IMG/VR virus record: IMGVR_UViG_3300042731_005770
Location: 1 to 21,834 of that record
Strand: one strand, 5' to 3'
Origin: a virus
Length of the DNA: 21,834 nt
Positions 1 through 14,461 of this stretch are shown piece after piece; the first letter of the stretch is position 1, and the number at the start of each line of letters is the position of its first letter. Both the position numbers and the translations under genes were made by a program. The notes under the pieces were generated by a model that made no database searches, was not told the origin of the DNA, and was given only the letters and a program-made list of their open reading frames with translations.

Positions 1-773
1 TTGCTGTACGTAGACTTTCAGCTACGCCAGTACCAGGATCGAATGTTGTGTTTGACAGCCTACCAGGACAGTTCTTCAAACTTGTAAACACAGTTTCACT
101 TGTTGGTCTAAATGACGGTTCTAAAACAGCGTTCTTACAACTATCACCAGACATGAGTATCACAGATGCTCCTGCAAACGGTGATCCAGTAACAATGCGT
201 ATTAGATTTAGTCAGGTACGTCTAACAGGACACGATTTCCTAGATATAGGTACAGGAAACTTTACTACAACAAATTATCCTGGAGTGCCTACAATTGCTC
301 CAGATCAAACCAAAGAAACCAAAGACAGTAACGGAGGAAGAGTGTTCTTCACTGCTACTGACCAAGATGGTAACTTTAGAGTTGGTGACTTGTTTAGTAT
401 TGAACAGGCAACAGGTGTTGCAACATTGAATGCTGAAGCATTTAATATTGCAGGACTACAAGAACTTACACTCGGTGAAGTTACACTGGGTGGTAACTCT
501 GCAAGTATTACAGAATTTAGTACAGATCCATTCTTTACTGCAAACAGTGATACAGTTGTACCAACACAACGAGCTGTTAAGGCTTACATTGAGGCACAAA
601 TTGGTGGCGGTGGTGCTACCCTAAACGTTAACAGTGTGACAGCTGGCGACATATTTGTTAACACTAACCAAATAACAACAGTCAGTGGAGAACAGATAAA
701 TATAAAAGCAAATGTAAACTTTAGCAAGAGTGTACTTGGTTTACCACTAGCTTATAATTACTTTTTAAGATAA
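1..773 (+). CDS. Virion structural / tail-fibre-like protein (3' part only)
   Basis: The reading frame is open from the left edge (first whole codon at base 3) to the TAA at 771-773, so the gene starts upstream. A GTG at 48 is in frame but has no reason to be the start, since the same frame reads Ala-Val-Arg-Arg before it. The visible ~257 residues are rich in Thr, Asn, Ser and Gly, with few Cys or Trp and no membrane segment. The phrases GRVFFTATDQDGNFRVGD and PFFTANSDTVVPTQRAVKAY resemble a conserved segment I know from virion structural proteins of T4-like cyanophages; the second part looks like the helix leading to an intramolecular or trimerisation region in fibre proteins. The next genes are also virion-like. 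The exact role (fibre, baseplate or neck) cannot be told from this fragment. Confidence 0.8.
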   Translation, partial: AVRRLSATPVPGSNVVFDSLPGQFFKLVNTVSLVGLNDGSKTAFLQLSPDMSITDAPANGDPVTMRIRFSQVRLTGHDFLDIGTGNFTTTNYPGVPTIAPDQTKETKDSNGGRVFFTATDQDGNFRVGDLFSIEQATGVATLNAEAFNIAGLQELTLGEVTLGGNSASITEFSTDPFFTANSDTVVPTQRAVKAYIEAQIGGGGATLNVNSVTAGDIFVNTNQITTVSGEQINIKANVNFSKSVLGLPLAYNYFLR

Positions 774-1120: not shown

Positions 1121-1822
1121 ATGCGTAGGATAAACACAGGAACAGTTGGAAGACCACTACTAGCTCGATTAGTTAGTGTTGATAACAAATTATCAAGTTT
1201 GGTTCCAAACGAAAATATTACAATTGAACCCAACGGTTCAGGTGATGTTGTTATACCTGCTACTCCTCAACTGTTAGTTCAAAATACAACAAACGCTACA
1301 ACAACTGCAACAGGCGGAGCAGTGTTTAGTGGAGGCATAGGTGTAGCAAATAATATTTACTCAGGTGGTAATATTAACTCTTCAGGACATTTAACAACAC
1401 AATATCTAACAGCGGCGGCTTCAACACACATGACAATACCTCAGGGTACAACGGCACAGCGACCTGGTTCTCCGACAGAAGGCATGGTGCGTTTTAACAC
1501 TGATTATGGTCATTTAGAGTGGTATACAGGATCTGGATGGACAGTAGGCGGATTCCAAGATGTTACAGTATCAGCAAACAGAACAACATTGAGTTGGCAG
1601 ACAAATTGGGTACAGGGTAACTATACAGTTACACTTCCAGGTGCGCCAGCAAGAGGCGATAGAGTAAGATTTTTCTTAGTAAGTGGATCTAACATGACTG
1701 TTGCTAGAAATGGTAAATTAATTAACAGTGATGCAAGTAACCTAACAGTTACAACAGAGGACGCGGCTTTTGAATTAGTGTTTAACAATGACACATACGG
1801 ATGGCGAATCTTTACAATTTAA
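1121..1822 (+). CDS. Tail-fibre-like protein
   Basis: 233 residues, start ATG at 1121 behind AAGGAGAGG (1110-1118), a strong ribosome binding site. The N-terminal part (about 1-35, RRINTGTVGRPLLARLVSVD) looks like a short attachment region. Residues about 55-95 are low-complexity Thr/Ala/Gly/Asn repeats typical of a fibre shaft. Around residues 108-145 it has TTAQRPGSPTEGMVRFNTD followed by a W-Y-T-G-S-G-W element, a motif common in phage tail fibres and phage-like adhesins. The C-terminal ~90 residues look like a compact beta domain. It sits immediately upstream of three Cys-rich proteins, 12 bases before the first. No enzyme motif is seen. It is probably a distal fibre component; its place in the particle is not known. 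Confidence 0.82.
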   Translation: MRRINTGTVGRPLLARLVSVDNKLSSLVPNENITIEPNGSGDVVIPATPQLLVQNTTNATTTATGGAVFSGGIGVANNIYSGGNINSSGHLTTQYLTAAASTHMTIPQGTTAQRPGSPTEGMVRFNTDYGHLEWYTGSGWTVGGFQDVTVSANRTTLSWQTNWVQGNYTVTLPGAPARGDRVRFFLVSGSNMTVARNGKLINSDASNLTVTTEDAAFELVFNNDTYGWRIFTI

Positions 1823-1834
1823 TAGGAGTTTTGA

Positions 1835-2617
1835 ATGGCCACATACGAAAGTTATAAGAAAGTCACAAACGAACAGATTATTGACGGTACAGTTACCGAA
1901 GATAAACTGGGCACTGATGTTAGACATAGATTATGTACAAAATGGCTTATAGGTGATGCATGTCGTTGCTCAGCAGGATGCTGTTGTTTATGGACAGTAC
2001 CTGCATGTACAAGGCGTGTTTACTTTGAACTATGGGGTGCTGGAGGCAACGGCAATGGTGCATGTTCATGTAATAGATGTCATCACTATCAAGGCGCCGG
2101 CGGCGGATCTTATAATTCCAAAATGGTTTCAACAGCCCCAGGGTGTACATACAGAATGTGCGCTGGGGGTGTTTATAGATGTTTAAGTAGAAACTGTTCT
2201 GCTTGTAATGGATGTATATCATATGTTTGCGGTTATAATGCATGTCAACTTTGCACAGTTGGCGGACGTTGTGCTAATGCAAACACAGACTGGACGAACT
2301 ATTGTTTTAGTTGTTGGACCTGTTGTGTTGCACCAGGATGTTCTACAGGTAGAGGTGATTTTCACATGATGAGTCACACAGGTCACTTTAGTGGCATATT
2401 CAACTGTCACTGTCACCATCAATATGTAAGGCCTACACCAGCACCGTTTTTAGGCGGACAAGTTTCGATGTCACAATCAGTATGTTGGATACGTTGTGGT
2501 TGTTGGATTGCACCTCCAGGACATGGTGGACAAGGTGCTATGAGTTCATACTGTGGACGTTGCTGTGGCCAAGGCGGCACAGGTGGTCCAGGAGTAGTAA
2601 AATTAACATTTACGTAA
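1835..2617 (+). CDS. Cysteine-rich, glycine-rich fibre-like protein, paralog 1
   Basis: 260 residues with 33 cysteines (about 13%), the first of three tandem paralogs. Residues 1-30 (YESYKKVTNEQIIDGTVTED) match the N-termini of the other two and look like a particle-attachment segment. Next comes CRCSAGCCCLWTVPAC, then FELWGAGGNGNG, the W-T-V-P ... L-W-G-A-G-G pattern of Gly-rich phage tail appendage domains, here filled with Cys. Further Cys clusters are ACSCNRCHH, GVYRCLSRNC, FNCHCHH, CWIRCGCW and the C-terminal CGRCCGQGGTGGPG. No signal peptide or membrane helix is present. The Cys pairs could form disulfides once outside the cell or bind metal; the sequence does not decide. The start is ATG 1835 after AGGAG at 1824-1828. 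Certain as a gene; family recognised only as fibre-like. Confidence 0.85.
   Translation: MATYESYKKVTNEQIIDGTVTEDKLGTDVRHRLCTKWLIGDACRCSAGCCCLWTVPACTRRVYFELWGAGGNGNGACSCNRCHHYQGAGGGSYNSKMVSTAPGCTYRMCAGGVYRCLSRNCSACNGCISYVCGYNACQLCTVGGRCANANTDWTNYCFSCWTCCVAPGCSTGRGDFHMMSHTGHFSGIFNCHCHHQYVRPTPAPFLGGQVSMSQSVCWIRCGCWIAPPGHGGQGAMSSYCGRCCGQGGTGGPGVVKLTFT
2031..2087 (+). repeat. 57-base conserved block, copy 1 of 3 (inside the Cys-rich genes)
   Basis: This block encodes the Leu/Phe-Trp-Gly-Ala-Gly-Gly ... Cys-Ser-Cys-Asn-Arg-Cys-His-His core. It is repeated at 2824-2880 and 3612-3668 with the same 57-base length and no gaps. By eye it differs from copy 2 at 4 positions. The high DNA-level identity compared with the diverged middle of the genes suggests recent duplication, gene conversion or strong constraint. 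Confidence 0.8.
2552..2586 (+). repeat. 35-base 3' repeat of the Cys-rich genes (copies at 3342-3376 and 4160-4194)
   Basis: This stretch codes for C-G-R-C-C-G-Q-G-G-T-G-G near the C-terminus. The copy at 3342-3376 differs at a single base; the copy at 4160-4194 encodes the same peptide with several silent changes. It marks the 3' end of each tandem unit. Confidence 0.8.
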
Positions 2618-2627
2618 GGAATTATTA

Positions 2628-3407
2628 ATGGCAAGTTATGCAAGTTATAAAAAGGTACATGGTGATCAAATGGTTAACGGGACGTTAACCGATAATGACA
2701 TCAATGCAAATACACTTAATAACTTTGGTGTAAAATGGTTTCATGGCATACCTTGTAGATGCGGAGCAGGGTGTTGCTGTAACTGGACAGTACCATCAGG
2801 TGTATGTAGAATGACCATAGAATTATGGGGTGCTGGAGGCAACGGCGCAGGTGCTTGTTCATGTAATAGATGTCATCACTTCAAAGCTGCCATGGGCGGA
2901 AGTTACAATACAAAAACAATTGGCACAAAAGGTGGATGTACATATAGTGTTTGTGCGGGCGGCGTATACAGATGTCTAAGTCGTAACTGTACAAGTTGTA
3001 ACGGATGCACAACATATGTGAACGGATATAACCTAAGTGGATTCTGTGCTTGCGGCGGCTATAGAGCAGAAGCAAATACTAGTTGGTCAACAGGATGTTT
3101 TTATACAAATGCATATTGTAGATGTCCTACACACAACAACGGTGAAATGTATGTTGTGCCTAACAATCCAGGTTGGTCAACAGCATCTGGATATTGCCAT
3201 TGTCATCCACAGGAAATACATCAAGGTGTTGCTCCTATTATTGGAGGCGTAAGCTCACAAGGCATTAGACAGTGTTGGATTCGTTGCGGTAACTTTAGTG
3301 TACCATACGGAACAGGCGGCCAAAGTGCAATGAATACTTTTTGTGGACGTTGCTGTGGCCAAGGTGGCACAGGTGGACAAGGACTAGTAAGGATAACTTA
3401 TATTTAG
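2628..3407 (+). CDS. Cysteine-rich, glycine-rich fibre-like protein, paralog 2
   Basis: 259 residues with 27 cysteines, colinear with the preceding gene along its whole length. Shared landmarks are the N-terminal YASYKKVHGDQMVNGTLTD, CRCGAGCCCNWTVPSG, IELWGAGGNGAGACSCNRCHH, GVYRCLSRNCTSCNGC, the CHCH pair in the middle, CWIRCG and the end CGRCCGQGGTGGQG. Several cysteines found in the other two are absent here: the one before the K-W at residues 36-37, one in the YVNGYN stretch (YVCGYN or FVCGYG in the others), and the CGCWIAP element, which is CGNFSVP. These losses may come in bonded or metal-sharing sets. The middle (about residues 140-215) is hard to align with the neighbours. The start is ATG 2628 with AAGGA at 2616-2620, overlapping the upstream stop. 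Function unknown; a virion surface protein by context. Confidence 0.85.
   Translation: MASYASYKKVHGDQMVNGTLTDNDINANTLNNFGVKWFHGIPCRCGAGCCCNWTVPSGVCRMTIELWGAGGNGAGACSCNRCHHFKAAMGGSYNTKTIGTKGGCTYSVCAGGVYRCLSRNCTSCNGCTTYVNGYNLSGFCACGGYRAEANTSWSTGCFYTNAYCRCPTHNNGEMYVVPNNPGWSTASGYCHCHPQEIHQGVAPIIGGVSSQGIRQCWIRCGNFSVPYGTGGQSAMNTFCGRCCGQGGTGGQGLVRITYI
2824..2880 (+). repeat. 57-base conserved block, copy 2 of 3
   Basis: Second copy, about 793 bases downstream of the first. By eye it differs from copy 3 (3612-3668) at 3 of 57 positions. It codes for the same W-G-A-G-G ... C-S-C-N-R-C-H core in paralog 2. Confidence 0.8.
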
Positions 3408-3415
3408 GAACAATC

Positions 3416-4225
3416 ATGGCGAATTATAGAAGTTACAAAAAAGTTACAAGTGCAATGGTAGTAGATGGAGCCGTTGATAGCGGGCATATTGCTACTGGTG
3501 TACGTGATAATTGGTGCGTAAAATGGATATACGGCAATCCGTGTAGATGTTCTGCAGGGTGTTGTTGTTTATGGACCGTTCCTTCGTGTGTGCGTAATGC
3601 AACTTTTGAATTATGGGGTGCAGGAGGCAATGGCGCAGGTGCTTGTTCATGTAATAGATGTCAACACTTTTCACCTCCAGGTGGCGGAGCGCATACTAGT
3701 AAACACGTAACAACTAATGCAGGCTGTACATATAGAATGTGTGCGGCAGGCGTGTATAGATGTCTAAGTAGAGAATGTAACGGCTGTAATGGTTGTAGTT
3801 CTTTTGTTTGTGGATACGGATTGTGCGTGTGTGCTTGCGGTGGACAGCGTGGTTGTACTAACAGTTCATGGACAAACAACTGTCACTCTGTGATGCCATA
3901 TTGTGTGCGTCCAGGCTGTAACGGTACAAGTGCAAGTGGAGATTACGCAGGTTATACACACGGTGGTAACTTCCAAGGAGCTTCGGCTTACATGTATCCA
4001 GGTGGTGCATGTCACTGCTGGAAACACATAGGACATTCATCAGGCGCAATAAGATTAAACACAGGCTATGCAGAACAAAACTCAAACTATTGCTGGATTA
4101 GATGCGGATGCTGGATTGCACCCTATGGACAAGGTGGACAATCGGCAACATCAAACTACTGCGGTAGATGTTGTGGACAAGGTGGTACAGGCGGTCCAGG
4201 ACTAGTAAAAGTGACATTCTTTTAA
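3416..4225 (+). CDS. Cysteine-rich, glycine-rich fibre-like protein, paralog 3
   Basis: 269 residues with 32 cysteines, the third paralog. I start it at ATG 3416 (MANYRSYKKVTS), not at the in-frame ATG 3341, because the N-terminus from 3416 lines up with the other two copies and the longer version would run through the end of paralog 2. It shares CRCSAGCCCLWTVPSC, FELWGAGGNGAGACSCNRC, GVYRCLSREC, GACHCWKH, CWIRCGCWIAP and CGRCCGQGGTGGPG. It is about ten residues longer in the central part, where an insertion rich in Gly, His, Tyr and Ala (about residues 175-235) sits. Closer to paralog 1 in Cys pattern and closer to paralog 2 in DNA over the conserved 57-base block. Likely a surface-exposed virion protein; no enzymatic motif. 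Confidence 0.85.
   Translation: MANYRSYKKVTSAMVVDGAVDSGHIATGVRDNWCVKWIYGNPCRCSAGCCCLWTVPSCVRNATFELWGAGGNGAGACSCNRCQHFSPPGGGAHTSKHVTTNAGCTYRMCAAGVYRCLSRECNGCNGCSSFVCGYGLCVCACGGQRGCTNSSWTNNCHSVMPYCVRPGCNGTSASGDYAGYTHGGNFQGASAYMYPGGACHCWKHIGHSSGAIRLNTGYAEQNSNYCWIRCGCWIAPYGQGGQSATSNYCGRCCGQGGTGGPGLVKVTFF
3612..3668 (+). repeat. 57-base conserved block, copy 3 of 3
   Basis: Third copy, 788 bases after copy 2, the same spacing as between the gene starts. It encodes the same core in paralog 3, with His changed to Gln before the last His. Confidence 0.8.
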
Positions 4226-4253: not shown

Positions 4254-4985
4254 ATGCCAATGGTACAATTTGATTATACATACAACGTTCCAAACGAACT
4301 GTGTGTAGATCATAGTTTTAGTAATAACTTAACTAGGACAGCAACTTATGACGGTCCAGACAAACTTTTCTTCATTGTAAATAATGAAACAGGAAGAGAA
4401 GAACTTGGACCAATTGTTGAAATAGAAAAAAATGATGGACGTCCTGTTCCTGACGGATGTAGATACGTTGAGATTGACTGTATTGATCATCCGGTACTTG
4501 CTCAGTTACGCGGACCAGTAGTAGACGAACAAGAAGAAGATCATACAGGGGAAGCAACACCGAGTACAGGTGCAACTGCTGTAACAGGGTACAAACCTTT
4601 TACATATCAAACACCAGTTCTTCCTTATCAATTTTATGATAGCTTGGCTATTATTTTTAATAGTGACGATACATATACAATCCCAGTAAAAGAACCGAGA
4701 GATACTGTAATGGGACTTGATATTGATAGAGATCTAACGTGGGACGATGTCAGAGCAAAAAGGGATACACTGCTAAAAAACAGTGATTCAGAAATTGTTG
4801 ATGATATGCCACAGGCATTAAAAGATGAGTGGAAAGATTATCGTCAAAGATTGCGTGATTGGCCGAATAGAATGCAGTCAGCAGGTAATTCACCTTTATT
4901 TGCATACTATATGGAACCAATTATGCCGGGCGCAGACCCAGTTACAGGAATGATAGATCCAGATACAACTACAGTCGTAATGTAA
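4254..4985 (+). CDS. Virion-region protein with tail-assembly-chaperone-like C-terminal domain
   Basis: 243 residues, ATG 4254 behind AAGGAG at 4239-4244. The first ~145 residues are not recognised: beta-rich, acidic, with a low-complexity linker near 91-112 (DEQEEDHTGEATPSTG). Residues about 161-206 (LTWDDVRAKRDTLLKNSDSE, then W193KDYRQRLRDWP) carry the W..vR..RD.LL..sD ... W..YR..LRD.P pattern of phage tail fibre assembly / tail assembly chaperone proteins. Such proteins help a fibre fold or trimerise and are usually encoded just downstream of it, and here the gene directly follows the Cys-rich proteins. A folding helper for those proteins is therefore plausible. The gene is followed by a terminator and closes the first structural block. 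The domain call is by pattern only. Confidence 0.7.
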   Translation: MPMVQFDYTYNVPNELCVDHSFSNNLTRTATYDGPDKLFFIVNNETGREELGPIVEIEKNDGRPVPDGCRYVEIDCIDHPVLAQLRGPVVDEQEEDHTGEATPSTGATAVTGYKPFTYQTPVLPYQFYDSLAIIFNSDDTYTIPVKEPRDTVMGLDIDRDLTWDDVRAKRDTLLKNSDSEIVDDMPQALKDEWKDYRQRLRDWPNRMQSAGNSPLFAYYMEPIMPGADPVTGMIDPDTTTVVM

Positions 4986-5097: not shown

Positions 5098-6114
5098 TTG
5101 ACAAGATCCACTGCATTTTTTATTAACGGAGGAGCGGGTAGAGTAATCTGTTCTATTCCTGCATTTGAATTATACGAAAAAGAACACCCTGAAGATGATT
5201 TCATTATTGTATGCGAAGGAGGCATGGACTTTTATAAAGGACATCCTACACTTCATAATAGAGCATATGATCATTGGCATAAAGGGCTATTTGAAGAACA
5301 CATTAAACACAGGAATTGTATTACACCCGAGCCTTACAGGATATGGGAATACTACAATCAAAAATGCGATCTTGCACAAGCATTTGATATTGAAATAAAT
5401 GGCAAAGGTGTTCGCAAACTAGATAAGCCTAACATCTATATTAATAAACAAGAAATGGTTACTGCGGCAACTATTGTAGATGAAGTAAAACAAAAAACAG
5501 GAAGAGATAAAGTATTAGTAGTACAACCATTTGGTCGTTCTACAGAAACACATGGCGACTTTATTATCGATCCTACAAGCAGAAGTTTTCAGTTAAACAA
5601 TATTGTAGATGTTATCAACGTATTGAAAAAAGAATATGGTATCATACTAATGAGTGAAATACCTGTTCCATTAGAAGAAGGTGAAAACACAAAGTATCCT
5701 GTAGCACAACCTCAAATTCCAGAACTACGTATTTGGGCAAGTATTATTGATATCGCAGATCATTTCTTAGGTTGTGATAGTTTAGGACAACACATGGTTA
5801 AAGCATTAGAAGGTACAGCAACTATTGTTACAGGAAGTACATATCCAGTAAACATTTCATATCCTGACGATCCTAAGTTTGATATTATAGATGTAGGTGA
5901 AGGCAAAAGAGTATACGCACCTATACGCTTGACAATGGAAGAAGAACAAGACAGACACAATGACGAAGTTATGGAACTAACAGATAAACAAATCAATAAA
6001 ATCTGCGACAGTGTTAGAAAAGTTTTAGGAACAAGTACAAAGAAAACAAACCCTGCCGGAACAAGCAAACTCTTAGCAGGCAGTGCAAATTTAAATCTTG
6101 GAGATAAAAAATAA
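5098..6114 (+). CDS. GT-B glycosyltransferase, heptosyltransferase (GT9)-like
   Basis: 338 residues from a TTG start at 5098, chosen because AAGGAG (5086-5091) lies 6 bases upstream and no ATG occurs near. The N-terminus FFINGGAGRVICSIPAFELY (G11-G12-A-G14) is the Gly-loop start of a GT-B fold, as in ADP-heptose:LPS heptosyltransferases. The C-terminal half carries IADHFLGCDSLGQHMVKAL (residues 219-236), which corresponds to the 'a-D-l-x-v-G-x-D-s-G-x-x-H-l-a-a-A-l' nucleotide-sugar site of family GT9. Neighbouring HldE, HldD and GmhB genes make an ADP-heptose donor likely. The acceptor is unknown. First gene of the operon; its TAA overlaps the next ATG (TAATG). The C-terminal tail after ~312 is low-complexity. 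The family match is by motif and is distant. Confidence 0.72.
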   Translation: MTRSTAFFINGGAGRVICSIPAFELYEKEHPEDDFIIVCEGGMDFYKGHPTLHNRAYDHWHKGLFEEHIKHRNCITPEPYRIWEYYNQKCDLAQAFDIEINGKGVRKLDKPNIYINKQEMVTAATIVDEVKQKTGRDKVLVVQPFGRSTETHGDFIIDPTSRSFQLNNIVDVINVLKKEYGIILMSEIPVPLEEGENTKYPVAQPQIPELRIWASIIDIADHFLGCDSLGQHMVKALEGTATIVTGSTYPVNISYPDDPKFDIIDVGEGKRVYAPIRLTMEEEQDRHNDEVMELTDKQINKICDSVRKVLGTSTKKTNPAGTSKLLAGSANLNLGDKK

Positions 6115-7925
6115 TGGCAACTTGGATAGCAGGCATCACCAGAGGACATAATGCTGGTGTATGTTTGTTAAAAGACGGAGAAATTGTTTTTGCAATTGAG
6201 GAAGAAAGACTTTCTCGACAAAAATATGACGGCGGACCTTACGCAAGTATTGTAAAAATTTTAGATTATACAGATAAACTAGACTACTTAGTAGTAGCAC
6301 ATACACAGCCTTTAGACGCTAGTCCTAATAGAGTAGACTTTACTGGTGATGATGTATATACAGGGCTATGTAGAAAATTAGGTTTAATTGATAATAGTCC
6401 TGGTATAAATTTATATAACCACCCTCAAGTAGTAGATTTAAGTCACATGCATCATAAGTTACATGCGGCATGTGCATTTTATCGCAGTGGATTTGAAACT
6501 GCTACAGGAGTCATTGTAGATGGTGCTGGCACGTTTATTCCTATGAAACATATCTTGAATGACAACGATATGTTATATGAATTAGAAACTATTTTTACAT
6601 GCGAATATCCTGCAAAATTTACAACAAAGTGGAAACACTTAGGTGCTAATGGTCCATTCATTTCAAGTCGTGTACCAGATATGACTAGTGAAAAGTATGA
6701 AGAAGAAGGCACACATATTGCTGTTATGGATGAAATGGCAGGTATTGTCAAAGCATACGAAGCAGTTACACAATACTGTGGCTTTACTGCTATCGAAGCA
6801 GGTAAGACTATGGGCCTGTCGCCTTATGGTAAACCTAACGACAAAATTCCTTCAATCTACGAAAAGCACGGTGACTGGACTAGTGCAAACAGACATCTAA
6901 TAACACCTACATATCCAAATGGTGCAAGGGTAGCAGAAGGAAGATATGAATTTTTAGCAACTTCTGAAGAACTATATAACGATCCTAAACAACTAGCAGA
7001 CTATGAAAATAGGCGAGATCTAGCGTATGCTGTACAAAAAGAAAGCCAAGAACAAGTACAAAAAATCATATTAGACGCTGTTGAAATGACTGGTAATAAG
7101 AATGTTGTACTATCAGGCGGATACGGACTTAACTGTGTAGCAAACTATTTTTATAAAGAAGAACTTAACAAACAAGGAATTAATTTGTACGTTGAGCCTA
7201 TTAGTAGTGATGCAGGTACTGCGATTGGCGCGGCAATGTTTGCATGGCATGAAATAAGCAAAAGCGAAACTGTACTACCATTTGCAGATAGTTTATATTT
7301 AGGTCCATCGTATCAATATGATAAAGCAGAAATTAGTAATACTGCCGACAAATACAATGCCACATTAGAAAAAGTAGAAATGGCAGATGTAGTAAAATTA
7401 ATGATGAATAAAAATATTGTTGCTATGTTCCAAGGACGCTCAGAAGCAGGACCAAGGGCACTTGGTAATAGGAGTTTGATGTATGATCCAACTGATCCAA
7501 ACGGTAAAGATCATGTAAACAAAGTTAAACGCAGAGAATATTTCCGTCCGTTTGCAGGTACAATACTTGCTGAACATGCACATGAATGGTTTGATATGCG
7601 TGGACTAGATGAATCTCCGCATATGATGTACGCTATGAATTGTCAACCTGGCGTAGAAGAAAGGATACCATCAATTATACACGTAGATGGTACATGTAGA
7701 ATACAGACAGTAACAAGAGAACAGAATCCATTATACTATGACTACATTAATGAATTCTATAAACAGACAGGTGTTCCTATTATATTCAACACATCATTTA
7801 ACTTAGGTGGCGAACCACTAGTAGAAACTTTAGATGATGCATTTAGAACTCTTGCAAATAGTGATATTGAATATTTGTATATTGCGGAACACGGAATTTT
7901 AGCAAAGGTAGAAAATGTTAATTAA
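6114..7925 (+). CDS. Carbamoyltransferase, NodU/CmcH/TobZ family
   Basis: 603 residues, the normal length of the family. These enzymes make carbamoyl-AMP from carbamoyl phosphate and ATP in an N-terminal Kae1-like domain and pass the carbamoyl group to a sugar or antibiotic hydroxyl. Motifs in order: GITRGHNAGVCLLKDGEIVF with H12; AIEEERLSRQK; MHHKLHAACAFYRSGF (H113, H114, H117); VDGAG with D136; TMGLSPYGKP; VVLSGGYGLNC; SSDAGTAIGAA; then the C-terminal half with MFQGRSEAGPRALGNRS (to residue 454), FRPFAGTIL and TGVPIIFNTSFN with LGGEPLV. All expected elements are present, so it should be active. It overlaps the glycosyltransferase stop by one base, so the two are probably coupled and a carbamoylated sugar is the likely product. 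Confidence 0.95.
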   Translation: MATWIAGITRGHNAGVCLLKDGEIVFAIEEERLSRQKYDGGPYASIVKILDYTDKLDYLVVAHTQPLDASPNRVDFTGDDVYTGLCRKLGLIDNSPGINLYNHPQVVDLSHMHHKLHAACAFYRSGFETATGVIVDGAGTFIPMKHILNDNDMLYELETIFTCEYPAKFTTKWKHLGANGPFISSRVPDMTSEKYEEEGTHIAVMDEMAGIVKAYEAVTQYCGFTAIEAGKTMGLSPYGKPNDKIPSIYEKHGDWTSANRHLITPTYPNGARVAEGRYEFLATSEELYNDPKQLADYENRRDLAYAVQKESQEQVQKIILDAVEMTGNKNVVLSGGYGLNCVANYFYKEELNKQGINLYVEPISSDAGTAIGAAMFAWHEISKSETVLPFADSLYLGPSYQYDKAEISNTADKYNATLEKVEMADVVKLMMNKNIVAMFQGRSEAGPRALGNRSLMYDPTDPNGKDHVNKVKRREYFRPFAGTILAEHAHEWFDMRGLDESPHMMYAMNCQPGVEERIPSIIHVDGTCRIQTVTREQNPLYYDYINEFYKQTGVPIIFNTSFNLGGEPLVETLDDAFRTLANSDIEYLYIAEHGILAKVENVN

Positions 7926-8562
7926 CGGCAAGGAAGCAAAAGATTTATCAGAATTTGATTTAGCAGAAGATCAAATGATTGTAATAGATGACTTATTCCC
8001 TCAATATGTTATCGAGCATGTTCATGATCAAGTTTTTAATACATACAGTTGGTTTTATGGACATACAAGCAACTATCCAGATGATCCAAGAACTGATGTA
8101 GGTGCAATACCAGATTGGCCGGAAGTCCCTGCACTCAAACAACAAATTTATCCTCCTAACAGTCCTAATGCACACGATGCATCTTGGAATATGATTTATA
8201 ATGCAGTCGCACAAATGATTCCATTTGAATTAGAAATAGGAGAAATATTAGTTAACGGACAGCAATGGATACACAACACAGTTGAACATACTGATTGTCA
8301 GTGCGACAACGGTATTAGTTGGATCTACTATGTGAACAGAGAATGGAAAGAAGAATGGGGCGGAGAAACTGTAATTCAATTAGACGGCGAATGGAAAAAA
8401 GTTTATCCTAAACCAGGACGTGTTTTCTTATTCAAAGGCAAAATTCCACACCACGGAAATCCACCCAACGATTCATACAAAGGACTAAGAGCAACGCTTG
8501 TGTATAAAACCATGCGAGCGCAACCATTACCACCTAAACACCAACAACCTTGGAGAACGTAA
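7915..8562 (+). CDS. 2-oxoglutarate/Fe(II) oxygenase, prolyl-4-hydroxylase-like
   Basis: 215 residues. The double-stranded beta-helix core carries the iron triad H125-x-D127 (VEHTDCQCD), a downstream strand WGGETVIQLDG, VYPKPGRVFLFKG, the distal H180 in IPHHGNPP and R192 in KGLRATLVYK for 2-oxoglutarate binding. This is the layout of the prolyl-4-hydroxylase-type 2OG-Fe(II) oxygenase superfamily, which hydroxylates proteins, sugars or small molecules. A short N-terminal stretch (residues 1-20) precedes the typical MIVIDDLFPQ entry strand. The ATG at 7915 lies inside the end of the carbamoyltransferase gene (11-base overlap), and its own stop overlaps the next start. All key residues are present. 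The substrate is unknown; a peptide or a sugar in the same pathway are both possible. Confidence 0.85.
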   Translation: MLINGKEAKDLSEFDLAEDQMIVIDDLFPQYVIEHVHDQVFNTYSWFYGHTSNYPDDPRTDVGAIPDWPEVPALKQQIYPPNSPNAHDASWNMIYNAVAQMIPFELEIGEILVNGQQWIHNTVEHTDCQCDNGISWIYYVNREWKEEWGGETVIQLDGEWKKVYPKPGRVFLFKGKIPHHGNPPNDSYKGLRATLVYKTMRAQPLPPKHQQPWRT

Positions 8563-9080
8563 TGGAGCATCAAATGTGGAGTGTACCGTTCTTTATTGAT
8601 ACTGTTGATCTTGACAAAATAAAAGTTGAACATAAAGAGACAGAGCGTGTATGGTTAAGCCAAGTTGAATCTAGTTTTGGTAAAGAAAATAATGTTCCTC
8701 CCGAAACTTTTGATTATCTAGTTTCGAGATTTTTAGAAATACTACCACAAGAACTAATAGGAATGAATCCTCGTTTTGGAGAAATATGGCGGAACAAATA
8801 CGAAAAAAACGATTGGCAAGATATACACATACACCCTAAAAGTCAATGGAGTTTTATAATATATGAAACTGTAGAAACTGGTAAAACTGTTTTTATGAAT
8901 CCACTTTACAAATTAATACAAAATCAAATAGGTACAGGACATCCTTGGTTTCCTTTAGATTTTAGACCAGAATGTAAAAAAGGTGATATAGTAATCTTTC
9001 CGAGCATGATTGAACATTTTGTTATGCCAGGCAACGAAGGAACTACACTATCTGGTAACATTTATATGGACTATGAATGA
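8562..9080 (+). CDS. Putative 2OG-Fe(II) oxygenase-like protein (PF13759 type)
   Basis: 172 residues. I place the start at ATG 8562, which overlaps the upstream TAA as TAATG and has GGAG at 8552-8555; an in-frame TTG at 8550 would be the only longer choice. The core reads IHIHPKSQWSFIIYETV (H89, H91), a strand with MNPL, then GDIVIFPSMIEHFVMP with the distal H152, which follows the pattern of the 2OG-FeII_Oxy_5 group, where an H-x-H-P replaces H-x-D. The usual Arg after the distal His is not obvious (TTLSGNIYMD), so 2-oxoglutarate binding may differ or activity may be lost. It ends in ATGA with hldE, a 4-base overlap. Family by motif; substrate unknown. Confidence 0.68.
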   Translation: MEHQMWSVPFFIDTVDLDKIKVEHKETERVWLSQVESSFGKENNVPPETFDYLVSRFLEILPQELIGMNPRFGEIWRNKYEKNDWQDIHIHPKSQWSFIIYETVETGKTVFMNPLYKLIQNQIGTGHPWFPLDFRPECKKGDIVIFPSMIEHFVMPGNEGTTLSGNIYMDYE

Positions 9081-10225
9081 AAGTTTTAGTAATCGGTGAT
9101 ATAATACTAGACAAATACATTTATGGAACTAGTAGAAGAATTAGTCCAGAAGCACCTGTGCCTGTTGTAACTTTTACAGAAGAAAAAACTACTATGGGCG
9201 GCGCGGCTCTTGTTTATGATAACCTAGTAAGTCTAGGAGTAGATGTTACTTTATGCAATACTGAGCAACCAAATAGTGTAAAAACAAGAGTAATTTGTGA
9301 TGGACATTACATAACACGTATAGACGACGATAAGCAAGCTGATGGTGATGCTGTTTTACAAATAGTAAAGAAATCAGATTTTACACCATACGATTATGTC
9401 ATCCTAAGTGATTATGACAAAGGCACATTAAGTAAAGCAGATAAAATTATTAGACATATTAACAAATTTGGATGTAAAGTAATTGTAGATCCAAAAACTG
9501 ATATGTCAAAGTATAAAGATGCTTGGTTAGTAAAACCTAATGAAAAAGAAGAAAAAGAATATTTTAAAAATTGGAAAGGTAACATTATAACTACAAGAGC
9601 AAGCGATAATGTTACTGCTAAAATTGAAGATAATAATTATAATATACCTGTAGAAACTGTTGAAGTTGCAGATGTTACAGGCGCTGGCGATTGTTTCCTA
9701 GCAGGATTTGTATACGGACTCACAAAAGAATATAGCTACAAAAAATGTTTAGAACTTGCTGTAAAAGGATCTACTGAAAGTGTAAAACATGCAGGAACAT
9801 ACATATTAAAAAAAGATGATGTAGAGAATACAGTTGTATTTACTAATGGAGTCTTTGATATACTACATATAGGCCATTTAAAGCTTCTTAGACACGCTAA
9901 AACGCTTGGAAAACGTCTTGTAGTGGGTATTAACAGCGATAGTAGTGTAAAACGCTTAAAAGGCGATTTAAGACCCATAAACAATGAACAAACCCGCAAG
10001 GAAAGCCTCTTAGAGCTTGGTTTTGTAGATGAAGTAATTGTGTTTGAAGAAGATACGCCTCTTGAAACAATTACCAAATTAGAGCCTGATATTATAGTGA
10101 AAGGTGGTGATTATAACTTTGACACAGTCGTCGGAAATCATTTAGCAAAAGTTGTGATTTTCCCGACAGTAGAAGGGCATAGCACTACAAGGATAATAAA
10201 TGAAGATATTAATTACAGGACATAA
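9077..10225 (+). CDS. hldE: HldE-like bifunctional heptose 7-phosphate kinase / heptose 1-phosphate adenylyltransferase
   Basis: 382 residues with both HldE domains in the usual order. The N-terminal PfkB-type kinase shows VIGDIILDKYIYG, the HldE signature RISPEAPVPV (residues 21-30), MGGAA, SDYDKGTLSK, IVDPKTD, KPNEKE and DVTGAGDCFLAG with catalytic D205. The C-terminal nucleotidyltransferase shows VVFTNGVFDILHIGHLKLL with H264-I-G-H267, NSDSSVKRLKGDLRPIN and IVKGGDYN, and ends GHSTTRIINE. It would phosphorylate D-glycero-D-manno-heptose 7-phosphate at C1 and, after GmhB acts, adenylylate the 1-phosphate. It is about 95 residues shorter than the E. coli enzyme (477), all lost from the kinase, which is about 250 residues instead of about 318. 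It overlaps hldD by 26 bases. The domain identification is secure; kinase specificity is inferred. Confidence 0.92.
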   Translation: MKVLVIGDIILDKYIYGTSRRISPEAPVPVVTFTEEKTTMGGAALVYDNLVSLGVDVTLCNTEQPNSVKTRVICDGHYITRIDDDKQADGDAVLQIVKKSDFTPYDYVILSDYDKGTLSKADKIIRHINKFGCKVIVDPKTDMSKYKDAWLVKPNEKEEKEYFKNWKGNIITTRASDNVTAKIEDNNYNIPVETVEVADVTGAGDCFLAGFVYGLTKEYSYKKCLELAVKGSTESVKHAGTYILKKDDVENTVVFTNGVFDILHIGHLKLLRHAKTLGKRLVVGINSDSSVKRLKGDLRPINNEQTRKESLLELGFVDEVIVFEEDTPLETITKLEPDIIVKGGDYNFDTVVGNHLAKVVIFPTVEGHSTTRIINEDINYRT

Positions 10226-11009
10226 AGGGTTTATAGGACAAAATCTCATGTCCTATTTAGAAACAAAATACGAAGTTGCTGGATATGATTTCCATCCAGA
10301 AAACTTGCCTCTTGTTAAAGACTATGATTGGGTAATTCATTTAGGAGCCATTAGTTCAACTACTGAAACAGATGTAGATAAAGTTATATTACATAATTAT
10401 GAATTTTCTAAGTGGTTGTTTAATCAATGTAATCAATATAATGTAAACATGCAATATGCTTCAAGTGCTAGTGTTTACGGAAGCACAACACATTTCAAAG
10501 AAAATGGACCTAGTGATCCTAGAAGTCCATATGCATGGAGCAAGTATTTGTTTGATAGATGGGTGACTGGTATACATCCAAAAATTATATTCCAAGGATT
10601 TAGATATTTCAATGTGTATGGTCCTCATGAAGAACACAAAGAAAATCAAGCAAGCCCTATTACTAAATTTACTAAACAAGCAAAAGAAGAAGGTAAAATT
10701 ACAATTTTTACAGATAGTGAAAACTACAAAAGAGATTTTGTATGTGTTAGTGATATATGTGAAATACATGAAAAAATGTTTGACGTAAAAGAAAAAGGTG
10801 TATATAATATAGGAACAGGTACAGCGATAAGTTTTAAGGATGTAGCAGATTTAATTGCACAAAAGCACAATGCAGAAATTAAATATATACCTATGCCGGA
10901 CAATTTGAAAAATCAATATCAAAAATTTACTTGCGCTAATCTTGAACGTTTAAGTACAGTTGTTAAACACAACTTTAAAACAGTAAAGGAATATATTAAT
11001 GAGCACTAG
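10200..11009 (+). CDS. hldD: HldD-like ADP-L-glycero-D-manno-heptose 6-epimerase
   Basis: 269 residues, an extended short-chain dehydrogenase: ILITGHKGFIGQNL gives the Rossmann G7-x-x-G10-x-x-G13. The HldD-specific stretches are HLGAISSTTETD, YASSASVYG, YAWSKYLFD with catalytic Y111 and K115, FRYFNVYGPHEEHK with K147, ENYKRDFV, YNIGTGTAISF and YIPMPDNLKNQYQ. These follow E. coli HldD closely in order and spacing, so I prefer HldD to a generic UDP-galactose or GDP-mannose epimerase. It would convert ADP-D-glycero- to ADP-L-glycero-D-manno-heptose with bound NADP. It is about 40 residues shorter than the bacterial enzyme. The ATG at 10200 lies inside the end of hldE, and its TAG lies inside the next gene. 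Confidence 0.92.
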   Translation: MKILITGHKGFIGQNLMSYLETKYEVAGYDFHPENLPLVKDYDWVIHLGAISSTTETDVDKVILHNYEFSKWLFNQCNQYNVNMQYASSASVYGSTTHFKENGPSDPRSPYAWSKYLFDRWVTGIHPKIIFQGFRYFNVYGPHEEHKENQASPITKFTKQAKEEGKITIFTDSENYKRDFVCVSDICEIHEKMFDVKEKGVYNIGTGTAISFKDVADLIAQKHNAEIKYIPMPDNLKNQYQKFTCANLERLSTVVKHNFKTVKEYINEH

Positions 11010-11517
11010 TCTTTTTATTGTTGATGATTTTTTACCTAAGCCTGATATGGTTAGAGAACAGGTTGTAAACTTTGAATTTAATACAACTGGAGAATTTCCA
11101 GGAGTAAGATCTTTTGCGGCAGATGACGATTATCAGATGTATTGCAAAACAAGATTTGAAGATATAATGGGCGTAAAAATTACAGAATTTTTGATGGATA
11201 GTTTTTGCTGGCAGTTGTGCTACGAAGGTGCTGAAACTTGGATTCATAAAGATCCTAGCATGTGGGCAGGTGTTTTGTATCTTAATCCAGATGCTCCTAT
11301 AGAAGCAGGCACAGGATTATATAAAGAAGTAAAAGAACAGGAATTTGAATTAGTAGATGCTATAGGAAATATATACAATAGACTTATATTGTATAGAGGA
11401 GATATACTTCACAGGAGTCTGTTATCAGGATTTGGTAATTGTAAACGCACAGGAAGACTAACACAAGTGTTCTTTTTCAATGTAAAAGACCAACCCGCTG
11501 GAGGATGGGAAGGATGA
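10999..11517 (+). CDS. 2OG-Fe(II) oxygenase-like protein (DUF6445-like)
   Basis: 172 residues. The core shows WIHKDPSMWAGVLYLNPDAP with H83-x-D85 as the first two iron ligands, then AGTGLYKEV, YNRLILYRGDILHRSL with the distal H138, and R153 in TGRLTQVFFF as a 2-oxoglutarate anchor. This combination (WxHxDxSxWAGVLYLN, LYxGDxxHRSL, GRLTQVFFF) is that of the DUF6445-type proteins, which are seen as short oxygenase-like proteins in marine bacteria and phages. It is a different family from the oxygenases at 7915 and 8562. The ATG at 10999 has AAAGGA at 10985-10990 and overlaps hldD by 11 bases; its TGA forms ATGA with the next gene. Activity likely from intact residues; substrate not known. Confidence 0.75.
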   Translation: MSTSLFIVDDFLPKPDMVREQVVNFEFNTTGEFPGVRSFAADDDYQMYCKTRFEDIMGVKITEFLMDSFCWQLCYEGAETWIHKDPSMWAGVLYLNPDAPIEAGTGLYKEVKEQEFELVDAIGNIYNRLILYRGDILHRSLLSGFGNCKRTGRLTQVFFFNVKDQPAGGWEG

Positions 11518-12143
11518 TTGCAAATGGAAAAACATTAGGATTATGGCCTACTTGGGTTTATGAAGCACAAGTTGAAAAACACGATGAAATATATAAAGAG
11601 TTTTTGCCTTATTTAGATGACGAATCTAACTTTGACGAACCCTGGATATATGGTAGATGTAAAAGTAGTATTAGAAATAATAAGAATGATACATTTCCTT
11701 GGCAAACTTGGTTTGAAAATATAAGACCTTATACACAACAGCATTTTGATGATATGATGCCTGTGGTTCCTTTTAATATATCTTGTGAAGAATTCTGGGT
11801 TAATATTTACAAACAACATGACTATCAAGAAATACACGATCATGCATTTCCTGGTAGAACTATTAGTGCTGTTTATATCTTAGAATTACCCGATGGAGAA
11901 GACATAGGCGGAGAATTAGTACTAGATTGTCCTAACTACAACATAGTCCAATCATCCGGTACTGAAAGAATTTTTAATCAATGGCAATATCAACGTTTTA
12001 TTCCAGAACTACAACCAGGCAAATTAATACTATTTCCTAGTTGGATACCACATTATGTACTGCCTAATAAAACAGATAAACGTAGGGCAACTATTGCCGC
12101 AAACTTTAAAATAGAGATAGCAGATGACAAAACTCAAGGGTGA
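11514..12143 (+). CDS. 2OG-Fe(II) oxygenase (PF13759 type)
   Basis: 209 residues. I start at ATG 11514, not at the in-frame ATG 11505, because 11514 forms the ATGA overlap with the upstream stop and has GGAGG (11500-11504) at 9 bases; 11505 would have no spacing from that site. The core is EEFWVNIYKQHDYQEIHDHAF (written here in part) with H108 and H110, ISAVYILELP, GGELVLDCPN, then PGKLILFPSWIPHYVLP with the distal H180 and R190/R191. This is the 2OG-FeII_Oxy_5 pattern, with the 'N-x-Y ... H-x-H-x-x-P' replacing H-x-D. It is a distant relative of the protein at 8562 but keeps the Arg that one lacks. It overlaps the cupin gene by 20 bases. Substrate unknown. Confidence 0.8.
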   Translation: MIANGKTLGLWPTWVYEAQVEKHDEIYKEFLPYLDDESNFDEPWIYGRCKSSIRNNKNDTFPWQTWFENIRPYTQQHFDDMMPVVPFNISCEEFWVNIYKQHDYQEIHDHAFPGRTISAVYILELPDGEDIGGELVLDCPNYNIVQSSGTERIFNQWQYQRFIPELQPGKLILFPSWIPHYVLPNKTDKRRATIAANFKIEIADDKTQG

Positions 12144-12486
12144 AGTAGAAAAAGGATGGGGTAGCGAAACTATATTTGCTACTAATGATTTGTATTGTGG
12201 CAAATTATTAAACTTCCATACAGGTGCAAAATTCAGTATGCATCTGCACAAAGACAAAGATGAAACTTGGTATGTGTTAAGTGGTAAATTTGTAGTAAAA
12301 ACTATTGATACAAAAACTGCTGATGTAAATGCTACTTCTTTGAAAAAAGGAGATACATGGCATAATCCACCTATGCTACCACACCAATTGCTGTGTTTAG
12401 AAGAAGGTACTATTGTAGAAGTAAGCACACCTGATAGTGTGGAAGATAATTATAGGGTAGAAAAAGGAGATAGTCAAAATGTCTAA
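12124..12486 (+). CDS. Single-domain cupin
   Basis: 120 residues forming one cupin barrel. Motif 1 is complete: G34, then five residues, H40-x-H42, four residues, E47, six residues, G54 (AKFSMHLHKDKDETWYVLSG). Motif 2 is GDTWHNPPMLPHQLLC with G76 and H87. These residues bind a metal. The closest general type is the small cupin related to the C-terminal domain of type II mannose-6-phosphate isomerases and sugar-phosphate isomerases, which suits a nucleotide-sugar operon. A sedoheptulose isomerase role in place of GmhA is only speculation; a sugar isomerase, epimerase or oxygenase are equally open. The start ATG 12124 lies 20 bases inside the preceding gene. The last eight bases overlap the next gene. 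Confidence 0.82.
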   Translation: MTKLKGEVEKGWGSETIFATNDLYCGKLLNFHTGAKFSMHLHKDKDETWYVLSGKFVVKTIDTKTADVNATSLKKGDTWHNPPMLPHQLLCLEEGTIVEVSTPDSVEDNYRVEKGDSQNV

Positions 12487-13300
12487 AACACTTTTTATTG
12501 GATGCAGTCATACTATGGGCTATAGTGGTTTTATAGTTGCTGAAGATAAAAAACCTAATGTATGGGGCGAAAATAATTACGCAGAAATTTATAGTAAAGA
12601 ATTTCATAAAGATGTAATTATTATGGCTAGTGCAGGTGCAGGTAACAGTGCCTTTCCAAGATTTCTAGCACATGCATTCAAGACATATAATGATATAGAT
12701 GAAGTATTCATACAAAGCACTTATTGGGGGAGATTTCCTATAGTTATAAATCCTGATTTAGATGAAAAAGATATTTTTCCTTTAGATTTCTTTTTGCAAA
12801 AAGATAACTGTGATGAAAATATAGATAGATGGAGTATAAGTTTAAGCATAGATAACAAATACTTAGAGCATTATATTAAACCACAACCTCAAGACTGGGA
12901 AATTTTTAAATATAACAAAGATACAATACCTTGGATTTCAGAACCAGACACAAGGCGTAGTTCACACATGTACATGCAAATGTGGCATTATCAAAATACA
13001 CATCTTATACAACAGGACTATTTTAAGGATATGGCATTGTGCGATATGCTATGTCATTATAATAATGTTCCTTTGTACGTATGGAATATAAATGATAGAT
13101 GTTATATTCCTAAGGAATCAACTAATTTTTATACAGAATTGCGTAATACAAAATTTTGCAACCAAGATGCAATTAGTTTTTTAGATAAAAAATACAATAA
13201 AAATCATAAGAATGACACTCTCGACGGCGAACATTACTCAAAACACGTTCACGAGAAGATTGCTACAGACTATATATCTTATGTAAAGGATATACAATGA
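12479..13300 (+). CDS. SGNH/GDSL-hydrolase-like protein
   Basis: 273 residues. The N-terminus TLFIGCSHTMGYS gives the block I nucleophile S10, ASAGAGNSAFPRFL gives the Gly-Asn of block III (N56), and DTLDGEHYS near the C-terminus gives the D249-x-x-H252 block V pair. A separate Gly for block II is not clear. SGNH proteins of this kind act as esterases or acyl transferases and deacetylate or acylate sugars. No signal peptide is seen, so it works in the cytoplasm. The central part (residues ~90-200) is aromatic-rich and unlike anything I recognise. Start ATG 12479 has AAGGAG at 12464-12469. It ends in ATGA with the next gene. In a sugar-modifying operon, an O-acyl transferase or esterase is a reasonable guess. 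Confidence 0.7.
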   Translation: MSKTLFIGCSHTMGYSGFIVAEDKKPNVWGENNYAEIYSKEFHKDVIIMASAGAGNSAFPRFLAHAFKTYNDIDEVFIQSTYWGRFPIVINPDLDEKDIFPLDFFLQKDNCDENIDRWSISLSIDNKYLEHYIKPQPQDWEIFKYNKDTIPWISEPDTRRSSHMYMQMWHYQNTHLIQQDYFKDMALCDMLCHYNNVPLYVWNINDRCYIPKESTNFYTELRNTKFCNQDAISFLDKKYNKNHKNDTLDGEHYSKHVHEKIATDYISYVKDIQ

Positions 13301-13875
13301 AAGACGACTACAACGGAATAGAAGAATATCCGCTTGCTTACGAAAAAGAATATTGTGAAGAAATAATCAAACACTTCGAAGTAATGGCCAGAAATGCAGT
13401 AACATACAAACAAGACAAACTTGAAGTGAATCAAGATGAACGTATTGTATTTGATTGGGCTCATACACAAAATCAATATCACTATGATTTCAAATTATGT
13501 GATTATTTCTACAAAAGATTACATGAAGTTTATACAACAGCCTATATGGAAAAATATCAAATGTTAAAGAACAGTGAGCAACATAGTCCTAAAGGCATGA
13601 GTATACAAAAATCAAAACCACATCAAGGATATCACGCTTGGCATGCTGAAGCCGCTGATATTGGTTCCTGTTCAAGAGTAATGAATTACATGTTGTATCT
13701 AAATGATGTAGAAGAAGGCGGCGAAACAGAATTCCTATATCAAGGAGTAAAACTTAAACCAGAAACAGGTAAGCTAGTCATCTTTCCAACAAGTTATATG
13801 TATCCTCACAGAGGCAATCCTATCTATAAAGGTGTTAAGTATATCATAACAGGTTGGTATACATATGATAGATAA
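13297..13875 (+). CDS. 2OG-Fe(II) oxygenase, P4H-like with an H-x-E iron motif
   Basis: 192 residues. The core is GYHAWHAEAAD with H116-A-E118 in place of the usual H-x-D, MLYLNDVEEGGETEF, LKPETGKLVIFPTSY, the distal H171 in YPHRGNP and K181 (GVKYIITGWYTYD) where Arg or Lys binds 2-oxoglutarate. This is the prolyl-4-hydroxylase-like superfamily; the H-x-E form with GYHxWHxE is, in my recollection, common in marine phage oxygenases. It is the fifth oxygenase of the operon and is related to that at 7915 in overall pattern but not obviously a duplicate. It overlaps the SGNH gene by ATGA and the GmhB gene by 11 bases. Likely active; substrate unknown. Confidence 0.85.
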   Translation: MKDDYNGIEEYPLAYEKEYCEEIIKHFEVMARNAVTYKQDKLEVNQDERIVFDWAHTQNQYHYDFKLCDYFYKRLHEVYTTAYMEKYQMLKNSEQHSPKGMSIQKSKPHQGYHAWHAEAADIGSCSRVMNYMLYLNDVEEGGETEFLYQGVKLKPETGKLVIFPTSYMYPHRGNPIYKGVKYIITGWYTYDR

Positions 13876-14461
13876 GTATAAGGTTGCAAATGCGGCTCCT
13901 GCAATTCCTACAAAATGTGTGATAGGATTAGACAGAGACGGAGTAATTAACAAAGACATCGGCACATATGTGACTTCACCTAGTCAGTTTGAAGCAATTG
14001 ACGGTAGCCTTGAAGCAATAGCACACATGAGAAGATTAGGGCATCGTATTGTTATCCTAACTAATCAAGGAGGTATAGCAAAAGGCCTAATGACTAACGA
14101 ACATGTAGAAAACGTACATGAACACATGTTAGACCTATTCGGGCAAGCAGGTTGTCCGAGTATTGAAGGAATCTACTACAGCGAAAGCAGTCAGAAAAAC
14201 GATATGTATGCAAAACCAAATGCAGGTATGTTTAAAAGATGTGCAAAAGAAATTCCTGGAGTAAAGTGGTCACAAGGATTCTTTGTTGGTGATAAAATGA
14301 GTGATCTACGTGCCGCTATTAAAGTAGGAGCAAGGCCTGTCTTAGTTAGAACCGGATATGGACTTGAAACAGAAAAACAGCTAAATAAGTATACATATAG
14401 GGACATTCGAAAGAAAACCTATATATTTGACGATTTAGCTGATTTTGCAAGCCAGCTTTAA
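13865..14461 (+). CDS. gmhB: GmhB-like D-glycero-D-manno-heptose 1,7-bisphosphate 7-phosphatase (HAD)
   Basis: 198 residues, a HAD phosphatase with the GmhB / histidinol-phosphate phosphatase plan: VIGLDRDGVINKD (D23 nucleophile, D25), SLEAIAHMRRLGHRIVILTN with T66 in TNQGGIAKG, GIYYSES, KPNAGM with K117, and FFVGDKMSDLRAA with D143 and D147, then VLVRTGYG. It would remove the 7-phosphate between the two HldE steps. Odd point: the zinc-binding Cys/His loop between IYY and KP in most GmhB proteins is replaced here by a short loop with no Cys or His (SESSQKNDMYA). Last gene of the operon; 14 bases separate it from the next structural gene, with no terminator. Specificity for heptose rather than histidinol phosphate rests on the neighbours. 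Confidence 0.85.
   Translation: MIDKYKVANAAPAIPTKCVIGLDRDGVINKDIGTYVTSPSQFEAIDGSLEAIAHMRRLGHRIVILTNQGGIAKGLMTNEHVENVHEHMLDLFGQAGCPSIEGIYYSESSQKNDMYAKPNAGMFKRCAKEIPGVKWSQGFFVGDKMSDLRAAIKVGARPVLVRTGYGLETEKQLNKYTYRDIRKKTYIFDDLADFASQL

Follow-up and report, generated by a model that had tools for sequence, protein, structure and literature searches.

Autotransporter protein heptosyltransferases are glycosyltransferases that act on a neighboring adhesin, and both phage-encoded glycosylation of virion proteins and S-glycosylated bacteriocins are known. In the latter two cases a virus protein or a peptide is glycosylated by a neighboring glycosyltransferase; a comparable relation is proposed for the locus described here, although the putative acceptors at this locus and its relatives are dozens of cysteines in otherwise unrelated tail proteins. 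The Gly_rich_2 domain of phage and surface proteins (PF21722) has a WTVP...WGAGG frame and a Gly-rich C-terminal end, both of which recur in the proteins of PHROG 4205. The latter is a family with no function assigned, encoded in the tail fiber operon of marine phages, T4-like cyanophages among them; the papers that we searched mention neither its Cys density nor a GT9-like partner, and our literature search found no paper connecting Cys-rich with Gly-rich tail fibers. In Salmonella phage S16, the polyglycine-sandwich adhesin gp38 caps the long tail fiber and binds the receptor (PMC6851490).

Cysteine-Rich Proteins in the Tail Fiber Operon

The window (the whole stretch of 21,834 nucleotides that was analyzed, from IMG/VR virus record IMGVR_UViG_3300042731_005770) encodes three consecutive Cys-rich proteins within a tail fiber operon (Table 1). 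The Cys counts of the preliminary description were reproduced by translation, and correspond to 12.7, 10.4, and 11.9% of residues; the remaining ORFs of the window contain 0–2.3% Cys. For copy 3, the homologous ATG was taken as the start, in place of a TTG at position 3341 in the mechanical ORF list. All three window copies match the PHROG 4205 profile over its full length, as do 24/24 of the S-CAM type. A long-fiber homolog was found upstream of all 89 arrays with room on that side, and a tail fiber assembly chaperone gene beside all 131 arrays with downstream room.

Table 1. Genes of the tail fiber operon and downstream sugar cluster in the window, with the profile matches on which each assignment is based.
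Feature	Position	Strand	Match
Long tail fiber, C-terminal part (cut by window edge)	3..773	+	phrog_9851 tail fiber protein, E 7e-51
Tail-fiber-associated protein, 106 aa	790..1110	+	phrog_11338 tail fiber protein, E 6e-13
Fiber-like protein, 233 aa, between fiber and Cys-rich genes	1121..1822	+	Weak matches to several function-unknown PHROGs
Cys-rich copy 1, 260 aa, 33 Cys	1835..2617	+	phrog_4205, E 6e-42
Cys-rich copy 2, 259 aa, 27 Cys	2628..3407	+	phrog_4205, E 2e-48
Cys-rich copy 3, 269 aa, 32 Cys	3416..4225	+	phrog_4205, E 3e-41
Tail fiber assembly chaperone (Phage_tail_APC)	4254..4985	+	PF16778, E 1.3e-9 (above cut-off)
GT9-like glycosyltransferase, phrog_8954	5098..6114	+	phrog_8954, E 2e-148; family hhalign to GT9 91.6%, E 8e-7
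NodU/TobZ-type carbamoyltransferase	6114..7925	+	PF16861, E 2e-59; PF02543, E 4e-26
HldE-like sugar kinase with cytidylyltransferase-like domain (putative ADP-heptose synthesis)	9077..10225	+	PfkB, E 6e-18; CTP_transf_like, E 4e-19
NAD-dependent sugar epimerase (putatively HldD-like)	10200..11009	+	PF01370, E 5e-32
HAD phosphatase (putatively GmhB-like)	13865..14461	+	PF13242, E 2e-11; PF08645, E 6e-10

The WTVP...LWGAGG framework previously noted in the Cys-rich copies is present, and is common to PF21722. The window copies matched this domain at E-values of 0.019 and 0.039, with no match for the third, all under the curated cut-off; they are therefore not filed as members. Because relatives reach 5e-9 (the best of 61/139 with matches at E < 0.01) and the S-CAM type reaches 3e-12 despite these sub-cut-off matches, the window proteins are likely to be divergent relations of PF21722. 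An almost Cys-free version of the framework had been described in the giant protein of the window; the frame is indeed shared over 66 columns (hhalign 77%, E 2e-5), but that version is low in Cys and not free of it. The giant protein itself (17928–21833, open at the window end) belongs to phrog_4474, and has Calx-beta-looking repeats flanking its PF21722-like Gly-rich domain. The proposal that Cys had been added to, or lost from, one fold is supported in the direction of gain: the Cys content of 27 cellular PF21722 domains has its median at 0% and does not exceed 2.5%, compared to 8–14% in the Cys-rich phage copies. As Gly-rich proteins putatively at the end of a long tail fiber, these copies resemble S16 gp38; however, gp38 is encoded by one gene, Cys density is not a feature of it, and the Cys-rich proteins have no PDB match at E ≤ 10, whether to gp38 or to other solved chains.

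Copy Number and Distribution of the Arrays

Exactly three copies occur in 143/145 arrays bounded on both sides (119 distinct protein triplets), and in 18/20 whole viral records (maximum length, 246 kb); of the other two records, one has an array truncated where its contig stops and the other, of S-CAM type, shows two copies at the threshold used. The cultured relatives are cyanophages. Three copies are present in S-SSM7, S-SSM6a, Sf-FS3, S-CAM1, and S-CAM3, and in S-SSM7, Sf-FS3, S-CAM1, and S-CAM3 the proteins belong to the same family, occupy the same operon slot, and contain 8–12% Cys. A MAG contig lineage at 31% identity also has three copies. A copy number of three is not universal, as there are two longer copies in P-SSM2 and P-SSM5, and two copies in L114. 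An ancient triplication was considered and set aside; copies 1–3 are each monophyletic within a lineage, in a tree whose deep branching order is not resolved.

A cyanophage identity of the window virus is unproven, the portal protein of a close relative being nearest to those of the jumbo phages Phosso, PA5oct, and Atu_ph07, and psbA was seen in contigs of other lineages and in none of the window-lineage contigs; the virus is probably not a cyanophage. Its lineage (L003, L004, and L011; window 3–21833) is an uncultured marine group of the T4 superfamily, and has the module in common with cyanophages. Phage arrays (L203, L202, L204, and L205/L206) were also found binned in bacterial MAGs (Rhodobacteraceae, Actinomycetota, Flavobacteriales, and Neomarinimicrobiota); these are likely to be binning contamination or jumbo-phage contigs.

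Cysteine Richness Follows a GT9-like Gene

Cys richness follows the neighboring phrog_8954 gene and not the fold, an association drawn from gene neighborhood. The phrog_8954 gene lies downstream of all 131 PHROG 4205 arrays with room for it. The reverse test used two scans with divergent phrog_8954 proteins, one of which repeats some contigs already seen while the other adds mostly new ones, and covered 117 loci for which 2.5 kb or more of upstream sequence was available. An upstream ORF of at least 6% Cys is present in 111 of these loci, and 57 of the 111 match no PHROG 4205-family model. After the six exceptions were opened, the loci with Cys-rich neighbors amounted to 116/117: one exception encodes a protein with 32 Cys in 575 aa (5.6%), four have Cys-rich ORFs downstream on the other strand, and one contig ends early. 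Across all 1,075 genes of the GT9-like loci, the Cys fraction is bimodal (below 3% in 810, at least 6% in 248).

The Cys-rich neighbors fall into about twenty similarity clusters, some perhaps distantly related; certain of them have no Pfam or PHROG match, and one is a fiber with a Peptidase_S74 domain. The most Cys in any protein of the analysis, 145 in 1,141 aa (12.7%; L350:1519-4944), is very unusual for a protein made in a reducing cytoplasm. Two single-cell marine viruses encode Cys-rich proteins in the same slot (73 Cys in 758 aa and 31 in 290; 26 in 282), with no match to phrog_4205 or PF21722. Tail fiber ORFs of 7–8.5% Cys were observed near the GT9-like gene at L344 (3–1238), L349, L354, and L356 (one with a confirmed Peptidase_S74 chaperone domain), and at these loci a second fiber gene is also Cys-rich.

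Every record of the phage collection with a GT9-like match of at least 80% length is a phage with a Cys-rich neighbor protein. S-SSM7, S-CAM1, and P-SSM2 have phrog_8954, and their proteins with 25–36 Cys are exactly those of the PHROG 4205 family; S-SM2, Syn9, S-SM1, S-PM2, and P-SSM4 are without phrog_8954, and among their proteins of at least 5% Cys, none exceeds 11 Cys. S-SM2 has kept homologs of the HldE-like and epimerase genes while being without phrog_8954, the carbamoyltransferase, and the fiber of the Cys-rich locus; therefore, Cys density is not predicted by the presence of sugar-synthesis genes on their own.

GT9-like homologs of 25–36% identity are encoded by Aeromonas phage HJ05 and Vibrio phages SBP1, D505, and K479. 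In HJ05, the gene directly adjoins that of a 559-aa tail protein whose 23 Cys lie mainly in its final 260 residues; the adjoining tail proteins of SBP1, D505, and K479 have 41 Cys in 925 aa, 41 in 1,756, and 39 in 1,643, respectively, those of K479 being concentrated near residues 100–400. Most other genes near these pairs encode proteins of 0–2% Cys, and in all four phages the annotation shows neither a carbamoyltransferase nor sugar genes beside the pair. Tail proteins from different sequence families have the trait, and a single neighboring enzyme gene predicts it; as unrelated tail proteins are equally Cys-rich beside it, the explanation moves from the fold to this gene.

Identity of the phrog_8954 Enzyme

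Weak matches to Glyco_transf_9 were obtained for 13/29 phrog_8954 members (E ≤ 0.1, best 1.1e-4), and most members fall below the Pfam cut-off: the window protein has no match, and the L206 homolog scores 20.9 bits against a cut-off of 22. By profile comparison with GT9 proteins (Table 1), the family aligns in the D-S-x-G-x-H donor-site region, with 0.2% for an unrelated control. The distant homologs of the HJ05/Vibrio group align with GT9 at 92.7% (E 4e-7) and with the marine family at E 4e-38. In place of the N-terminal GD motif of GT9 the family has GGAGR or GGLGR, and no solved homolog of phrog_8954 was found. Thus, phrog_8954 has a D-S-x-G-x-H donor-site region as in GT9 heptosyltransferases and autotransporter protein heptosyltransferases, although the acceptor of these enzymes is Ser/Thr or LPS, whereas Cys is proposed for phrog_8954. 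The carbamoyltransferase gene accompanies phrog_8954 in 114/114 GT9-like loci with downstream room.

Selection on the Cysteines and Their Possible Role

The cysteines are under strong selection. In 231 homologous sequences representing all three copies, Cys is invariant at 15 columns and nearly so at another five; at the invariant columns, about 597 switches between TGT and TGC were inferred with zero replacements, and dN/dS is 0.04–0.13, so that Cys richness is not attributable to chance. Several Cys columns are common to the window, S-CAM, and P-SSM2 types at low overall identity. Across the folds compared, Cys ranks first or close to first among residues in retention, with no sequon and with random parity.

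Given that the trait is independent of the fold yet tied to one enzyme gene, the simplest explanation is that the enzyme uses Cys as acceptor sites. We tentatively favor the reading, which we hold at somewhat less than an even chance, that the cysteines of these tail-fiber-associated proteins are acceptors of a modification by the GT9-like enzyme, most likely S-linked glycosylation. It is possible, but more doubtful, that this S-glycosylation is fold-independent, with unrelated tail proteins of marine T4-like phages, Vibrio schitoviruses, and an Aeromonas phage having independently become Cys-dense as acceptors of adjoining GT9-like enzymes. Action of the enzyme on these proteins, Cys sulfur as the acceptor, heptose as the sugar, and a virion location of the proteins are all inferred. 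The three window genes would encode tail-fiber-associated proteins on a Gly-rich PF21722-like frame, and the neighboring enzyme would modify their cysteines, most likely with an S-linked sugar. In the marine phages, synthesis of the sugar would fall to the HldE/epimerase genes within the cluster, and the NodU-type carbamoyltransferase would carbamoylate it; where a Gram-negative host makes ADP-heptose, its phages would draw on the host donor. Once decorated, the proteins would be located close to or at the fiber tip, where they may bind or shield. Independent, mostly single, Cys turnover and the absence of a sequon fit acceptor sites. The invariant positions fit less well, as they exceed the need of a decorative acceptor and accord with a structural role; in addition, the predicted glycosyltransferase function comes from profile evidence below the Pfam cut-off for most members, and host LPS could be the target of the sugar cluster. 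Disulfide or metal roles, or a mixture, may apply.

For disulfides, which we consider unlikely as the main explanation, thiols reduced in the cell would form intra- and inter-chain bonds after lysis in oxic seawater and lock a hetero-oligomeric fiber tip of the three paralogs. The invariant and near-invariant Cys of each chain would suit such a role, as would the joint occurrence of Cys 132 and 137 in copy 1 (8/8 loci), and the presence of exactly three copies in nearly all arrays suggests a 1:1:1 complex. A search for a dedicated sulfhydryl oxidase (Erv1) gave no match, and its control gave none either; oxidation would therefore come after lysis. However, the Cys number is even in 43–49% of chains and 39% of triplets, and branches with a Cys change mostly gained or lost one Cys, unlike the even numbers and paired gains and losses of an obligately disulfide-paired protein. 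The pairwise staples envisaged in the preliminary description are thus not borne out as stated, and the random parity and single turnover argue against an obligate partner for every Cys, with the invariant core lying outside the reach of the turnover test. Same-column co-change between paralogs, as a sign of inter-chain contacts, had no Cys-specific excess over other columns, in a comparison from which gene conversion is inseparable. Furthermore, cellular PF21722 domains do without Cys, and disulfides do not account for the restriction of the trait, among unrelated folds, to neighbors of the GT9-like gene.

Metal binding appears less probable again. Here, the cysteines, together with conserved His residues (H192 in C-H-C, H84, and H181), would hold Zn, Fe, or Fe-S, either for folding in a reducing cytoplasm or for receptor uptake (the Ferrojan horse idea). 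H192 is kept in 228/231 sequences, H181 in 199, and H84 in 186, and iron bound by HxH motifs has been described in tail fibers (PMC11705849), which counts for this possibility. Recurring C-x-C and CCC groups had been put forward as candidate staples or metal clusters; their positions are conserved, but in no one protein is there a clear excess over composition. CxC and CxxC groups per protein are near the composition expectation, and C-x-C enrichment was accordingly set aside as mostly a composition effect. Moreover, ligand sets are not fixed across folds, and metal binding does not account for the link to a glycosyltransferase and carbamoyltransferase. Of about the same low probability is a host-range cassette in which the sugar genes modify host surface glycans and the GT9-like gene and Cys-rich proteins only travel together, with no enzyme–substrate relation; the genes are co-located, and LPS biosynthesis genes similar to those of the sugar cluster have been noted in cyanophages (PMC3037559), but the pair persists without adjoining annotated sugar or carbamoyl genes in HJ05, SBP1, D505, and K479, and the GT9-like gene pairs with many different tail proteins.

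If the cysteines are indeed modified by the GT9-like enzyme, phages would own a surface chemistry, the S-linked decoration of host-contact proteins, and the reading of virion proteomics, receptor binding, and marine phage particles would change. If they are not, the purpose of the extreme Cys density is still a question, and one testable in S-SSM7, P-SSM2, Aeromonas phage HJ05, and Vibrio phage SBP1.

Additional Genes of the Window

Three 2OG-Fe(II) oxygenase genes lie inside the sugar cluster of the window (7915–8562, 11505–12143, and 13297–13875). Genes for proteins starting FGCSxTxYxWPTWAD recur between the GT9-like and carbamoyltransferase genes of other loci, sometimes in tandem (L382, L417, L416, and L439); the window protein encoded at 12479–13300 has a similar start (FIGCSHTMGYSG). 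Among the tail genes, the ORF at 16325–17926 has subtilisin-like motifs (DSG, HGTH, and SGTSMATP), and is a possible virion protease.
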